Both the position numbers and the translations under genes were made by a program. A DNA stretch of 64,000 bases from Rhodospirillales bacterium (GTDB lineage Bacteria; Pseudomonadota; Alphaproteobacteria; Rhodospirillales; Casp-alpha2): NCBI GenBank assembly GCA_018662225.1, contig JABJGO010000009.1:1-64000 (forward strand). The letters are read 5' to 3'. Positions 13,172 to 64,000 of this stretch are shown here, in pieces. The notes beneath the pieces were generated by a model. The model saw nothing but the letters and a program-made list of their open reading frames with translations. It was not told the DNA's origin and searched no databases. Numbering within the stretch: position 1 is the first letter of the stretch; every line of letters starts with the position of its first letter.

Positions 13172-14029
13172 ATGTACGCAAATCCCGACTCACTTGTATC
13201 CACAGAATGGCTGGCTGAGCACATCGACGCGCCAGATGTCCGTATGGTCGATGCCACATGGTTTATGCCGGGTGGTGATCGGAATGCGCGAACGGAGTAC
13301 GAAGCCTGCCATATTCCGGGGGCCGTGTTTTTTGATATCGATGAGATTGCCGATACGGACAGTCCCCTGCCCCACATGTTACCAAGCCCGGAGAAGTTTT
13401 CGTCACGCGTGCGCAAACTGGGGTTGGGCGACGGTGTGCGCATGGTTATCTATGATGCCAATGGCGGTTATATGGCCGCACACCGGGTATGGTGGACGTT
13501 CCGGACATTTGGCCACGAAGGTATTTCGGTATTGGATGGTGGACTGCCTAAATGGACCCAAGAGGGGCGTGCCGCCGAAGACATGCCGCCCGTGCCACGA
13601 GAGCGTCACTTCACCGCCCGCCAAAACAATTTTCTGGTTCGGTCCCGTGATCAGGTGCTGGCTAATTTGGGCAGCAAACGCGAACAAGTGGTGGACGCTC
13701 GTTCGCCTGGCCGTTTTAGCGGTGCCGATGCAGAGCCCCGTGCCGAGCTGTCATCCGGTCACATCCCGGGTAGCTACAACGTGCCGTTTAATACGTTGGT
13801 GAACATGCAGGATTTCGGCACCCTTAAATCCGCCGGTGATATAAAGGCGGCTTTTGAAGCTGCCGGCGTGGACGTGACAAAACCCATCATCACCACATGT
13901 GGTAGCGGTGTTACCGCATCCGTCTTGGCCTTTGCCCTGCATTTGATTGGTGCACCCGATGTGGCAGTCTACGACGGATCGTGGACCGAATGGGCCAGTG
14001 ATCCAGCCAATCCTGTGGCAACGGACTGA
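13172..14029 (+). CDS. sseA: 3-mercaptopyruvate sulfurtransferase (tandem rhodanese)
   Basis: The enzyme transfers sulfur from 3-mercaptopyruvate to acceptors such as cyanide or thiols. The 285-residue protein has two rhodanese domains (about 1-135 and 155-285). The active-site loop is CGSGVTA with Cys243, which is the mercaptopyruvate sulfurtransferase form rather than the CRxGx[R/T] loop of thiosulfate sulfurtransferase. Supporting signatures are HIPGAVFFDID and HIPGSYNVPF. A GAGGCG site precedes the ATG. It follows cysK, so the pair may link cysteine synthesis to cysteine degradation. Confidence 0.93.
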   Translation: MYANPDSLVSTEWLAEHIDAPDVRMVDATWFMPGGDRNARTEYEACHIPGAVFFDIDEIADTDSPLPHMLPSPEKFSSRVRKLGLGDGVRMVIYDANGGYMAAHRVWWTFRTFGHEGISVLDGGLPKWTQEGRAAEDMPPVPRERHFTARQNNFLVRSRDQVLANLGSKREQVVDARSPGRFSGADAEPRAELSSGHIPGSYNVPFNTLVNMQDFGTLKSAGDIKAAFEAAGVDVTKPIITTCGSGVTASVLAFALHLIGAPDVAVYDGSWTEWASDPANPVATD

Positions 14030-14035
14030 TCCGTC

Positions 14036-14617
14036 ATGCCATCCAACATGATCAACAGTGTCATTACATCGCTGGAGATGCGCGCCCGGCCCACGTCGCC
14101 GACGCCGACCTTACCGGCAGAGAAGATCGCCATTCTGCGCGCAGAAAAACCTACCGTTTCGTTTTACCGGTATCTTTACAACACCATCGGTGAAGACTGG
14201 TTATGGTGGGAACGTCGGGTGATGGATGACGAGACATTGTCCACTATCATCACCGATCCCCGCATAGAAATTTTCATTCTATATGTGCGTGGTGTGCCGG
14301 CTGGCTATTGCGAGCTCGATTGCCGCACGTCGGGTGAGGTGGAATTGGTTTTCTTTGGCCTTATGCCTGAATTCATTGGCCGTGGGTTGGGGAACTATTT
14401 CTTACGGTGGGCTATCGATCAGGCCTGGACGCACGATCCGGATCGGGTGTGGGTTCATACCTGCACCGAAGACCACGTGAACGCCCTGCCCATCTATCAG
14501 AAAATTGGTTTTGAGGCCGTGGGTCAGGAAACCATTGAGATCGTCAACCCGCGCCTGTTGAAGGAATTCGGTGGCGAGATTGATATCTCTACATACCCGA
14601 AAGCAGCAAACGATTAA
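14036..14617 (+). CDS. GNAT-family N-acetyltransferase
   Basis: The 193-residue protein has a GNAT acetyl-CoA-binding core: the beta4 strand ELVFFGLMPEFIGRGLG at about residues 102-118, containing the Q/R-x-x-G-x-G/A-type motif as IGRGLG, and the C-terminal NALPIYQKIGFEAVG typical of the fold. The substrate cannot be told. It starts 7 nt after sseA and is probably in the same transcript; an in-frame ATG 12 nt later is an alternative start. A strong terminator follows. Confidence 0.85.
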   Translation: MPSNMINSVITSLEMRARPTSPTPTLPAEKIAILRAEKPTVSFYRYLYNTIGEDWLWWERRVMDDETLSTIITDPRIEIFILYVRGVPAGYCELDCRTSGEVELVFFGLMPEFIGRGLGNYFLRWAIDQAWTHDPDRVWVHTCTEDHVNALPIYQKIGFEAVGQETIEIVNPRLLKEFGGEIDISTYPKAAND

Positions 14618-22105: not shown

Positions 22106-22593
22106 GATTCTTGGCCTGTTGCGCGTTGGCAATCCGCGCATTCGCCGACGGCCTCAACGTTCACATGGCTTAGTCTGAAATTTCCGGCTTGCGCCATTTC
22201 TGAAATGGGCCCCCACATGGGGTTGTCCGGTATTTCGGCGGCCGTGCCGCATACGTGGCAGATAAGAAAGGTACCGTCATGGTGCTCGCCGGGGCGGTTA
22301 CACCCTACATACGCATTTAATGATGCAATGCGGTGAACAAGCCCCTGTTGAATGAGAAATTCAAGCGCCCGATAAATTGTCGGCGGGGCCGAATTGTGGC
22401 CTTCAGTCTTTAAGGTTTTCAGCAACTCATACGCCCCCAGAGGGGAATGGCCCTGCCAAACCAACTCCAGCACCCGACGACGAATGGGGGTGAGTCGTGC
22501 TTTGTGGCTCTGACACACCACATCAGCCGCATCCAATGCAGTCTGGATACATGTGCTGTGGTCGTGTCCTTTGTGCAAAAATGGTGAGGTCAT
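22102..22593 (-). CDS. zur: Zinc uptake regulator Zur (Fur family)
   Basis: Zur is the zinc-responsive repressor of zinc uptake genes. The 163-residue protein has the Fur-family winged helix ([25 protein letters not shown]) and the structural zinc site CHVC and CADC, with the metal-binding region [10 protein letters not shown]. Three in-frame ATGs exist (22623, 22605, 22593). The last is chosen because a Zur box covers 22608-22622, which puts the promoter there, and a GAGCGG site lies just before 22593. It is autoregulated by that box and coupled to znuC. Confidence 0.92.
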
Positions 22594-54706: not shown

Positions 54707-55014
54707 GCATAAGGATTCCACACTACGGTGCCGGAGTCTTGCGGGATTCTGCCCTCGGCTTGTGAATTCTGGGGATAAGGTTTGGATTCAACACATTGTC
54801 GGGCCCTGTTGAATGCCCAAAACCCAACACGTATTCTGAAACAACGCCCCAACGGTTCGAATAATGGCGAATCCCTTAGGGCCGTGACGCCAGCTATGAG
54901 TTGATTGCATACCTGTGGTGCAAACATGGCATTGGTGCATTTCTGACAATTACCTTACATATCACTTCATGAACAAACATCTGTTCACCTCATTTACCGA
55001 AAAGGACTAAAATC
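54707..55014. other. 308-nt intergenic region between dnaE and a 53-aa gene; two inverted repeats
   Basis: This divergent gap must hold promoters for dnaE and the small gene. TTGCA-N9-TGCAA lies at 54905-54923 and GAACAAACATCTGTTC (GAAC-N8-GTTC) at 54971-54986, the latter 28 nt upstream of the small gene's ATG. Neither matches the alphaproteobacterial direct-repeat LexA box. I see no RNA gene. Confidence 0.4.
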
Positions 55015-55176
55015 ATGGCACTCGTAAAATTCATCAAAAATATTGTTTCTCCTTCTGCCAACGAAGAATTGGCAAAACTCGATGCACACCTACTGGCAGA
55101 TATTGGTTTCAGCACCGCTTATGCGCGCACCAATTGTGTTCGCATGCCTGCTGATCTGGGTATTCGCCTGGTTTAA
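55015..55176 (+). CDS. 53-aa DUF1127-like small protein, copy 1
   Basis: The 53-residue frame reads MALVKFIKNIVSPS, then LAKLDAHLLADIGFSTAYAR and ends DLGIRLV. The core resembles the short DUF1127/YjiS family (L-x-L-x-x-L-x-DIG-[FL]-[ST]), which in alphaproteobacteria acts in RNA and nutrient-stress networks. That assignment is inference from the motif. A second gene of exactly the same length lies at 56221 and shares 29 of 53 residues. AAAAGGAC stands before the ATG and a terminator 24 nt after the stop. Confidence 0.8.
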   Translation: MALVKFIKNIVSPSANEELAKLDAHLLADIGFSTAYARTNCVRMPADLGIRLV

Positions 55177-55200
55177 TTCAGTACCCTCAAGAAATTTATC

Positions 55201-55233
55201 AACGGCCCGGTGTATTTGATCCGGGCCGTTTTT
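55201..55233 (+). terminator. Intrinsic terminator of small gene copy 1
   Basis: AACGGCCCGG (55201-55210) and CCGGGCCGTT (55221-55230) form a perfect 10-bp stem with a 10-nt loop, followed by TTTTTGTTTTT. It lies 24 nt after the stop and also faces the 3' end of the convergent glucosaminidase gene at 55246. Confidence 0.93.
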
Positions 55234-55245
55234 GTTTTTGGTGCT

Positions 55246-56046
55246 CTAATCGCCAACCATTAACTGGCGATTAGTACGGATCATGGCTTGAATTTCTCGC
55301 ACGTACGCATCACCACGCTCGGAATACGATTCAAGACCAACAGCCAGTTCTATCCCTGTGGCTGTCCGGCCTTGCTGGCGTGCTTGCCACCTGATTTTAC
55401 GTAACCGGTTATAGGCCCGGGTGCTATTGATATTCATGAGGTAGGCTCGGACGGAATCGTTAACTGAACGGTAAGCGGCGACCTCGTGGTTTTTATCCTC
55501 ATCGCGCCTGTCGGGAACCAGGCCGCAGCCTGCCTGGAAGCACCACTGCCCGAACATATTGTTGCCCATTTGTGAAAATCGTGACTGCCCCCAGCTTGAT
55601 TCATTAGCACTCTGGCCCAGAACGAGCGTAAGCGGAACAGCGTCAACGCGTTTCAAGAGTTGCGTCCACTCTTTCCCTGTCCAATCCACACCGTAGTCAG
55701 AGGCCACGTTGGTTAGCCAATTGGCGTTCTTGCCATTTTTTTTCATGACCAGTATTCGTGACCTTAACGCCAGAACGAGATCGTTTTCAGCTTCAATCAC
55801 AGGGCGCATAAAGTCGAAAAATGCCTTTTTTCTGGCTTTGATAGCCATGCGGTCATCCAGCACCAAATCATCCGCATCGTGGAACCCGATGCCATTCGTG
55901 GCGGTGTATTCGTAACCCAGGTAGCCCATGCTGCCCGCCGTGATCACGAGCGCTAGTCCAACACCAACCACCAACCGGTCCGCACACCGCATGGCGCAGC
56001 AAATATAATGTCGGCATTTAAAAATTAGATCTGCGGACGTCACCAA
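55246..56046 (-). CDS. Bax-like glucosaminidase-domain protein
   Basis: The 266-residue protein has a probable N-terminal membrane anchor (LVVGVGLALVITAG, residues 25-38) and a C-terminal glucosaminidase domain of the Bax type: VLGQSANESSWGQSRFSQMGNNMFGQWCF with likely catalytic Glu149, and YNRLRKIRWQ. Such enzymes cleave peptidoglycan glycan strands in the periplasm. The GTG at 56046 has GGGAG 8 nt upstream and is chosen; an ATG at 55992 would start at the anchor. It lies between the two 53-aa genes, convergent with one and divergent from the other. Confidence 0.85.
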   Translation of the reverse strand: MVTSADLIFKCRHYICCAMRCADRLVVGVGLALVITAGSMGYLGYEYTATNGIGFHDADDLVLDDRMAIKARKKAFFDFMRPVIEAENDLVLALRSRILVMKKNGKNANWLTNVASDYGVDWTGKEWTQLLKRVDAVPLTLVLGQSANESSWGQSRFSQMGNNMFGQWCFQAGCGLVPDRRDEDKNHEVAAYRSVNDSVRAYLMNINSTRAYNRLRKIRWQARQQGRTATGIELAVGLESYSERGDAYVREIQAMIRTNRQLMVGD

Positions 56047-56220
56047 GGTTGCTCCCTTAATTCTTTAGCAAGCAGCTATGCCGCCATCACATATCTGAAA
56101 TGTAATAATGGCATTAGTGAAAATACACAAACCGTCGTACATGTTGGTTAACAGCGTTGCTTGTTCAAAGACTCATGCAGCCTATTCACACTCAACATAT
56201 TTGCCAAAAGGATTAATGCC

Positions 56221-56382
56221 ATGAAATTGATAACAGCACTCAAAAACTTCGTTGCCCCATCTGCTGCCGCCGACCTGGCAAAATTTGATGCCCACCTGCT
56301 GGCAGATATGGGATTTAACACAACCAATGCCCGGACCGCCGTTATTCGCACCCCTCTTGAGGCCGGTGTTCGTCTGGCCTGA
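56221..56382 (+). CDS. 53-aa DUF1127-like small protein, copy 2
   Basis: The product begins MKLITALKNFVAPS, continues LAKFDAHLLADMGFNTTNAR and ends EAGVRLA. It is a paralogue of the 55015 gene with identical length and no gaps in the alignment. Its leader also matches: TTCAC and an AAAAGGATTAA ribosome region at the same distance from the ATG. The frame is open upstream, but this ATG is fixed by the paralogue. Function is unknown; the DUF1127-like core suggests an RNA-binding or regulatory micro-protein. Confidence 0.8.
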   Translation: MKLITALKNFVAPSAAADLAKFDAHLLADMGFNTTNARTAVIRTPLEAGVRLA

Positions 56383-56430
56383 TGCCGGCATTGCCTAAGA
56401 CGCCTAAGATGATGGTTATGTAAGACAATG

Positions 56431-56458
56431 ACGGTCCGCCTATTCGGTGGGCCGTTTT
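56431..56458 (+). terminator. Intrinsic terminator of small gene copy 2
   Basis: ACGGTCCGCC (56431-56440) pairs with GGTGGGCCGT (56446-56455), with two G-T pairs and a 5-nt loop, followed by TTTGTTTAAT. The stem base ACGG/CCGT is the same as in the terminator of copy 1, in keeping with an ancestral duplication of the whole unit. Confidence 0.85.
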
Positions 56459-56617
56459 GTTTAATAGATATACGAACCCAAAAGCGAGATTTCCGATGCC
56501 TGATGAAGAACACCCATTGAACGGTCCACACCCGACTGATTGAGTACGACGGTCTGCTGTTTTAACACTATTCCATGTGCATCCATTGTAATTGCTTGCT
56601 TTTTCGGTGATTAAGCA

Positions 56618-62103: not shown

Positions 62104-64000
62104 TCAAGGCGTTTGCATGGCTACTGTGGCCAGTGATTTCAGCATATTTCGCACCCCGGCCAGACGGGCTTCCACGTCATCCCACTTGCGCATAAAGACC
62201 AGCTTGTGATCGGGCCGCAATTTAACGGTGCCCCGATGCTCCTGAATCAGGCTGACCAAGCCTGCTGGATTGGCGAAGTCGTCGTTTCGAAAACTGATGA
62301 CAGCCCCTTTGGGGCCAGCGTCAACTTTCTCAACATTTGCTTCCCGGCACAGGGCTTTAATGGCGACGGTTTGTAACAGATTTTCGGTTTCTTCGGGCAG
62401 TGGTCCAAACCGGTCGATCATTTCGGCGGCCAGCCCATCAATCTCGTCACGATCACTAAGCTTGGCGATACGGCGGTACAGCCCCATCCGCACCGGCAGG
62501 TCGGCTATGTAGTAATCCGGAATCAGCACGGCCAGCCCCACATTGATCTGAGGGCTCCAGTCATCGCTGGTAGGATCATCGCTGACCAGCCCACGGGCTT
62601 CGGCTACGGCTTCTTCCAGCATTTGCTGGTAAAGCTCGAAACCAACCTCACGGATATGCCCCGATTGTTCATCACCCAACAGGTTGCCCGCGCCCCGGAT
62701 ATCCAGATCGTGACTCGCCAGTGAGAATCCAGCCCCCAGATGATCCAGTGTCTGCATGACTTCCAGGCGTTTTTCCGCCGCTGGCGTCAGCTTCATGCCG
62801 GGTGGTAGCGTGAGATAAGCATAAGCCCGGGTCTTGGACCGCCCCACGCGACCGCGCAACTGATACAACTGCGCCAACCCGAAGCGGTCTGATCGGTGAA
62901 TAATGATGGTATTCACCCGCGGCATGTCGAGGCCGGATTCAATAATATTAGTGGCCAGCAGCAAATCAAACCCGCCGTCATAAAATGACGTAACAGCATC
63001 TTCTAATGCGCTCGGTGGCATTTGGCCGTTGACCACGGTTATGGTGATTTCCGGCACCAGTTCACGGATTTCCCGTTCTATCTTTTCCAGATCAGCGATG
63101 CGGGGGCATACATAGAATGTCTGACCACCCCGGTATCGTTCGCGCAGGATCGCCTCTCGAATGACCACTGGATCAAAGGGCAATACATAAGTTCGCACCG
63201 CCAACCGGTCCACAGGTGGTGTGGCGATCAGGCTCAGGTCCCGGATACCAGACAGCGCCAGTTGCAACGTGCGGGGTATGGGGGTCGCACTCAACGTCAC
63301 CACATGCACATCGGCTTTAAGTTGTTTCAGGCGTTCTTTATGGGCCACCCCGAAGTGTTGTTCCTCATCAATGACCAGCAGCCCCAAATCACGAAACGCC
63401 ACATCTTTAGCCATCAAGGCATGGGTACCGATCACAATATCGACGGTGCCCTCTTCCAGTCGTCGCTTGGTTTCCTTGGCGTCCTTGGCAGAAACCAGAC
63501 GAGATAGCTGCCGGATTTCCACAGGAAACCCTTTAAACCGTTCAACGAAATTTTCGTAATGCTGACGGGCCAGCAATGTGGTGGGCACGACAACGGCAAC
63601 CTGTTTACCTTCCATTGCCACCACGAATGCCGCCCGTAACGCGACCTCGGTTTTACCAAAGCCCACATCCCCACAAACCAAACGATCCGTATTGCCACCA
63701 CTGGATAAATCACCGATCACCGCATCGATAGCCCGTTGCTGGTCTTCCGTTTCGACAAAGGGGAATCGGGCACAGAACTCATCGAATATTCCGGTTTGGG
63801 GATTAAGGGGCGCTGAGGTTTTGAGTGCCCGAGCGGCGGCAACGCGGATCAGTTCAGCCGCCATTTCCCGAATGCGGTCTTTCAGTTTGGATTTACGGGC
63901 CTGCCATGCGGCACCACCCAGACGGTCCAGTTGAGCGCCTGCGTCTTCTGACCCGTAACGCGAAATCAGCTCAATGTTCTCAACGGGCAAGAATAACCGG
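62104..64000 (-). CDS. mfd: Transcription-repair coupling factor Mfd (C-terminal part; 5' end outside window)
   Basis: Mfd removes stalled RNA polymerase and recruits UvrA. About 630 C-terminal residues lie in the window. They include the RNA polymerase-interaction edge (PVENIELISRYG), the translocase with Walker A GDVGFGKTEVALRA, the DEEQ box (VIDEEQHFGV), TATPIPRTLQLALSG, the motif VI region QLRGRVGRSKTRAYAYL, and the C-terminal inhibitory domain. The frame runs through the window edge, so no start is present. It ends about 100 nt upstream of proS. Confidence 0.96.
   Translation of the reverse strand, partial: RLFLPVENIELISRYGSEDAGAQLDRLGGAAWQARKSKLKDRIREMAAELIRVAAARALKTSAPLNPQTGIFDEFCARFPFVETEDQQRAIDAVIGDLSSGGNTDRLVCGDVGFGKTEVALRAAFVVAMEGKQVAVVVPTTLLARQHYENFVERFKGFPVEIRQLSRLVSAKDAKETKRRLEEGTVDIVIGTHALMAKDVAFRDLGLLVIDEEQHFGVAHKERLKQLKADVHVVTLSATPIPRTLQLALSGIRDLSLIATPPVDRLAVRTYVLPFDPVVIREAILRERYRGGQTFYVCPRIADLEKIEREIRELVPEITITVVNGQMPPSALEDAVTSFYDGGFDLLLATNIIESGLDMPRVNTIIIHRSDRFGLAQLYQLRGRVGRSKTRAYAYLTLPPGMKLTPAAEKRLEVMQTLDHLGAGFSLASHDLDIRGAGNLLGDEQSGHIREVGFELYQQMLEEAVAEARGLVSDDPTSDDWSPQINVGLAVLIPDYYIADLPVRMGLYRRIAKLSDRDEIDGLAAEMIDRFGPLPEETENLLQTVAIKALCREANVEKVDAGPKGAVISFRNDDFANPAGLVSLIQEHRGTVKLRPDHKLVFMRKWDDVEARLAGVRNMLKSLATVAMQTP

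Follow-up and report, generated by a model that had tools for sequence, protein, structure and literature searches.

The first 64,000 nucleotides of contig JABJGO010000009.1 of a Rhodospirillales bacterium (GenBank assembly GCA_018662225.1), hereafter the window, contain two small plus-strand genes, W1 and W2, with a minus-strand gene for a putative cell-wall hydrolase between them. This arrangement raises the question of what the twins encode, what controls them and whether the hydrolase belongs to the same unit. Our sequence comparisons make it likely that each twin is a monocistronic micro-gene, that the two are paralogues within a divergent, lineage-specific family of DUF1127-like genes, and that in this Rhodospirillales-type bacterium both are part of the LsrB/VtlR regulon.

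The twin genes and their family

The open reading frames and profile searches, together with the signals around them, define the following features.

55000..55006, plus strand: ribosome site AAAAGGA of W1, 8 nt 5′ of the ATG
55015..55176, plus strand: W1, 53-aa DUF1127-like small protein
55201..55240, plus strand: intrinsic terminator of W1, a 10-bp GC-rich stem followed by a T-run
55246..56046, minus strand: neighbouring Bax-like glucosaminidase, with a more likely start at ATG 55990-55992
56206..56212, plus strand: ribosome site AAAAGGA of W2, 8 nt 5′ of the ATG
56221..56382, plus strand: W2, 53-aa DUF1127-like small protein
56430..56462, plus strand: intrinsic terminator of W2, a hairpin followed by a T-run

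Most of what an earlier note had read from the bare sequence stands: the two frames of 53 codons each, the ungapped identity of 29/53 residues, the common AAAAGGA ribosome region and the similar GC-rich terminators beginning with ACGG, which fold into stable hairpins of about -19.7 and -19.8 kcal/mol with T-runs 3′ of both. Its remark that the first gene is too short for most gene callers was mistaken, since W1 has 162 nt, the same length as W2, and the minimum gene length of Prodigal is 90 nt, so that common gene callers can accommodate it. Rfam at a permissive threshold gave no match within the surrounding 10 kb.

A family profile was searched in 48 genomes from the GTDB family of this bacterium and then in 384 genomes from elsewhere in the class, mostly fragmented assemblies. 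Homologues were found in 5 of the 48 (E 1e-8 to 1e-33), and no full-length relative was detected among the 384. The window's own genome holds three copies and the sister genome G001, of the same genus, two; G005, G009 and G013 have one or two each, and its promoter led to a further, more distant relative of 53 aa in G020. The twins do not make up the entire family in this genome, the third copy lying on contig C22 (L086:8589-8747). W1 is closest to this C22 copy (39/53 residues, 74%) and W2 to the syntenic copy of the sister genome (38/53); the twins are therefore not a recent tandem pair. The idea that a complete micro-gene unit had been duplicated holds in the sense of a paralogous family, and the unit even includes a common promoter.

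The earlier note had made its reading depend on conservation of the frames in relatives. They are kept there, constant in length and with conserved ribosome sites, and pS is well above pN in every pair examined (0.46/0.12 for W1 versus the C22 copy), so that the family members are to be regarded as translated, selected genes. With high confidence, W1 and W2 can thus be considered real, conserved genes under purifying selection.

A common promoter element

Comparison of the upstream regions (260 bp) of nine family genes uncovered an element, GCATNNNTGNNNTG-N7-GGCATTNGTG, which occurs with identical spacing upstream of eight of them, at -108 to -133. It consists of a dyad YATGC-N7-GCATR, a TG-N3-TG motif, the GGCATTNGTG block and the TA of a -10 hexamer at position 50. 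In the window it takes the following form.

54895..54911, plus strand: predicted LysR-type recognition dyad of W1, TATGA-N7-GCATA
54907..54937, plus strand: LsrB/VtlR-type box and conserved GGCATTGGTG of W1, 0 mismatches to the family pattern, matrix rank 1
54956..54961, plus strand: predicted -10 of W1, TACATA, in fixed register; inferred transcription start about 54968
56077..56093, plus strand: predicted LysR-type recognition dyad of W2, TATGC-N7-ACATA
56089..56119, plus strand: LsrB/VtlR-type box and GGCATTAGTG of W2, 1 mismatch, matrix rank 2
56138..56143, plus strand: predicted -10 of W2, TACATG, in the same register as that of W1; inferred start about 56150

The single mismatch of the W2 element falls in the GCAT core. 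At up to three mismatches the window contains four matches, as compared with 0.51 expected, and none of 100 shuffles reached four. Sites at 22545 and 46196 have three mismatches each to the family pattern.

The published VtlR/LsrB box reads GCAT-N3-TG-N3-T (PMC7486931). W1 matches it exactly and W2 with one mismatch, in a register deduced from the predicted -10. In the abcR1 promoter of S. meliloti (PabcR1), the box lies at -61 to -49 and the -10 is CTATAT (PMC8844928); when the -10 hexamer of W1 and W2 is set as -12 to -7, their box also falls at -61 to -49. We conclude with high confidence that the two genes share one predicted promoter architecture, which is, at the level of sequence, a match to the LsrB/VtlR box through which abcR1 and DUF1127 genes of Rhizobiales are activated. 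Since both genes have the same predicted control, the differential expression of the twins that had been suggested finds no support; it is the C22 copy that is devoid of the element.

The element was also compared with other promoters. Ten of 12 DUF1127 genes from Rhizobiales plasmids carry it at -125 to -128. On average, 4.1 of the five dyad pairs are matched over 22 sites, as compared with 1.25 expected, and 22 of the 23 sites accepted have the TA at position 50; these counts do not represent independent events, owing to the common ancestry of the genes. The Rhizobiaceae sites were located with the W-family matrix, which favours similar sequence and is not fully independent; the dyad and the -10 lie outside this matrix, and constant distance was not imposed in locating the sites. 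An independent matrix, trained only on ten Rhizobiales DUF1127 promoters and two lsrB-adjacent sRNA promoters, ranked W1 first (18.4) and W2 second (8.1) on both strands of the window. The third-best score, 4.2, belongs to a site at 63465.

With the extended pattern, the own genome yielded six matches versus none in the reversed control, and the genomes of the family 48 versus 6 (sum over the table). Best matches to the family pattern in the own genome include W1, W2 and a site before the gene of a 33-aa hydrophobic micro-protein on contig C85 (C85:34717-, L143; also L138 and L135), which has orthologues in G001 and G013. These micro-protein genes carry the element, a ribosome site and a terminator, and their products, with the consensus MFxIGPAxxxTNRVLGSFIGAIALxTxxLxxFx, have no match in Pfam. 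A canonical DUF1127 gene on C39 has the family pattern upstream as well, with more mismatches than W1, W2 and the C85 site. We discarded a site on C65 that resembles the promoter but has a dyad match of 2/5 and neither a -10 nor an ORF. Separately, a related upstream motif, GCATTGCTGCAGTGCAACA, was seen at canonical long DUF1127 genes of other genera (L102, L103, L108, L112, L116, L119).

The best score upstream of the C22 copy is -18.6 with the independent matrix, and the gene is divergent from another LysR gene. This copy may have changed its regulator; lacking the element, it indicates that family membership does not imply LsrB control.

An LsrB orthologue and an AbcR-like sRNA candidate

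The own genome encodes a 298-aa LysR protein directly after trxB (L155:2461-3354; contig C3, about 13527-14420). Its best match in the PDB is 9HH1 (E 2.4e-94; next 2.8e-32), which is LsrB of A. tumefaciens (PMC11975290). Judged by this match and its position, the protein is an LsrB/VtlR orthologue in a non-Rhizobiales genome. LsrB has been called unique to Rhizobiales (PMC11975290), a statement that this predicted orthologue contradicts; the title of an earlier paper describes LsrB as highly conserved among alpha-proteobacteria.

Directly after lsrB follow the element and a CTCCC-rich sRNA candidate, CTCTCCCAGACGTGAAGCCTCCCTGTTTAAACTC, with a terminator (C3:14573; L222, about 1365-1575), and the same succession is found in the sister genome (L223). 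The core of the sRNA candidate is present in 27 of the 48 family genomes, with a matching element 5′ of it in all 12 loci read. Rfam returned sub-threshold SorX/mmgR-like matches only, and the sRNA is therefore called AbcR-like by position and promoter. The arrangement recalls trxB-lsrB-abcR as described for A. tumefaciens and S. meliloti (PMC8844928 for the latter), with which it has in common the trxB-lsrB order, the LsrB-type box at the same register and a CTCCC-rich sRNA with terminator directly downstream. In Brucella, VtlR activates AbcR2 and three DUF1127 proteins (PMC12595884). The present module differs from that of Rhizobiales in that the sRNA remains below the Rfam gathering score, in that the predicted target set includes the W family and the 33-aa micro-protein, and in the regulator itself. 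The four cysteines of A. tumefaciens LsrB, C144/C273 and C236/C244, have been linked to thiol-based sensing (PMC11975290). LsrB of the own genome and that of the sister genome contain no cysteine at all; in the alignment, all four Agrobacterium positions are replaced, including the C144 and C273 conserved in the redox-sensing type. This rules out the Rhizobiales thiol redox switch as the inducing signal.

Could another LysR-type regulator bind the dyad and control the twins instead? The genome has 27 LysR-type matches, dyads of the ATGC-N7-GCAT type fit LysR proteins in general, and both the C22 copy and a canonical DUF1127 gene on C30 adjoin other LysR genes. We nevertheless find this unlikely, given that the composite element, with dyad, TG-N3-TG and -10 register, recurs behind lsrB at the AbcR-like sRNA in own and sister genomes, abcR being a known LsrB target, and recurs again at the DUF1127 genes of Rhizobiaceae. 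Alternatively, the W1 and W2 transcripts may act mainly as small regulatory RNAs, their ORFs being secondary, a doubt also raised for atu1667. The units are indeed sRNA-sized, with strong terminators, and sRNAs are other targets of the same promoter type. Conserved ribosome sites, frames of constant length and a third-position-biased change in all pairs make this explanation improbable, and we retain that of protein-coding members of an LsrB/VtlR regulon.

Relation to DUF1127

The family consensus is MKxVKFxKNxVAPSANEELAKLDAHLLADIGFNTANARTNxIRxPAEAGVRLV. Against Pfam DUF1127 (PF06568; gathering cut-off 23.3 bits), W1 reached 22.4, spanning profile positions 17-32 only, and the C22 copy 21.5, both below the cut-off; W2 had no match to this profile. 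The LxxLxDxxLxDIG core is present in W1 and W2 (LAKLDAHLLADIG and LAKFDAHLLADMG). In the HMM comparison called for by the earlier note, hhalign against aligned canonical DUF1127 sequences, taken from relatives and Rhizobiaceae, gave 95.5-95.6%, as compared with 4.5% for the best of 200 column shuffles. The DUF1127 hallmark, an arginine-rich and strongly basic protein with about 14% arginine (PMC12501420), is not found in W1 and W2, in which the arginine-rich half is absent. Arginine makes up 5.7% of both (5.7-7.5% in the family) versus 9-23% in the DUF1127 comparison set; their net charges are +1 and +2 (+1 to +3 in the family). Keeping the DIG core, but missing the Pfam cut-off and the arginine-rich half, W1 and W2 are therefore best described, on these profile comparisons, as distant DUF1127 relatives, "DUF1127-like" as first proposed, rather than members.

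The nearest known counterparts are the small DUF1127 proteins (SDPs) of Agrobacterium, Brucella and Rhizobium (atu1667, BAB1_0914, BAB2_0512, BAB2_0574), which like the W family are of about 50 aa, occur as several paralogues and have an LxxLxxRxLxDIG core. The Rhizobiaceae genes read here also share with it the LsrB/VtlR-type promoter, at about -127 from the ATG. The W family departs from the SDPs in lacking their arginine-rich N-terminal W-R-K-Y-R part, in having a C-terminus of its own (NARTNxIRxPxExGVRLV), in falling below the Pfam cut-off and in coming from a non-Rhizobiales lineage. YjiS of Salmonella and E. coli and CcaF1 of Rhodobacter have the DUF1127 core motif and size class in common with the W family but are arginine-rich; YjiS is reported to bind protein and CcaF1 RNA. 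The DIG core and the 95.6% profile match might suggest that W1 and W2 work as canonical RNA-binding DUF1127 proteins like CcaF1. This appears hardly probable, since RNA binding of CcaF1 is linked to its arginines, and the W family has 5.7-7.5% arginine and a net charge of +1 to +3, as against up to 23% arginine in DUF1127.

The neighbouring hydrolase

The minus-strand glucosaminidase seen earlier between the twins scores 53.9 bits with Pfam Glucosaminidase (cut-off 30.2) and 124.6 with the NCBIfam model 'protein bax', below the equivalog cut-off of 193. It is an extra paralogue, a second Bax-like protein of the own genome being encoded on C32, and its close relatives come from the sister genome and from a small number of other alphaproteobacterial assemblies. 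Synteny of twins and hydrolase holds within the genus and is replaced by unrelated neighbourhoods around the family relatives of G005, G009 and G013. In the sister genome G001, the order Bax-W2-GGDEF-AzlC is kept with one gene inserted; the contig ends inside bax, and synteny there covers the W2 side. The inserted gene (L080:1053-2546), which separates the W2 orthologue from that of the GGDEF response regulator, is glycerol-kinase-like by its DQGTTG motif. The dnaE neighbours in G005, G009, G011 and G020 include no twin gene.

That the twins and the hydrolase form a functional cell-wall module is very improbable: apart from the gene order kept in G001, the family relatives of G005, G009 and G013 stand among other genes, no LsrB-type element was found with the independent matrix upstream of bax or of its relatives L032-L034, no W-family gene was detected in L032-L035, and W1 and W2 are each equipped with a promoter and a terminator of their own. 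The hydrolase is probably a genus-level neighbour, and not part of the micro-gene unit.

Proposed mechanism and implications

According to the mechanism that we propose, LsrB would act as a LysR-type activator: bound to the dyad at about -61 to -49, it would recruit RNA polymerase, and both transcripts would start 47-71 nt 5′ of the ATG. The 53-aa products, presumably mostly helical, may then act as adaptors that bind a protein partner, for example a sensor kinase, and adjust nutrient metabolism; contact would be made through the conserved LDAHLLADIG core rather than through an arginine-rich surface. That they are adaptors like the small DUF1127 proteins of Agrobacterium is a doubtful analogy. 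The AlphaFold2 model of W1, built from the family alignment, is a helix of low confidence (pLDDT 57), and the adaptor role therefore rests on distant homology only. It is tempting to speculate, with somewhat better reason though still tentatively, that DUF1127-derived micro-proteins shed their arginine-rich surface and kept the LsrB promoter, and that a cysteine-free LsrB senses a non-thiol signal and also drives the previously undescribed 33-aa hydrophobic micro-protein.

How the small proteins of the very large DUF1127 family act is a matter of dispute, with RNA binding and protein binding through the arginines as the opposing views. The W family would be a natural branch that retains the promoter and the DIG core without the arginine-rich half, and may thus serve to separate the two views; should it complement a small-DUF1127 mutant, the arginines would be dispensable. 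The cysteine-free LsrB likewise turns the signal sensed by LsrB into a testable question. Contrary to the published restriction of LsrB to Rhizobiales, the trxB-lsrB-sRNA-DUF1127 circuit would be present outside that order. A stress and nutrition circuit described chiefly in bacteria that associate with plants and animals thus probably runs in a distant lineage, with unusual small proteins.
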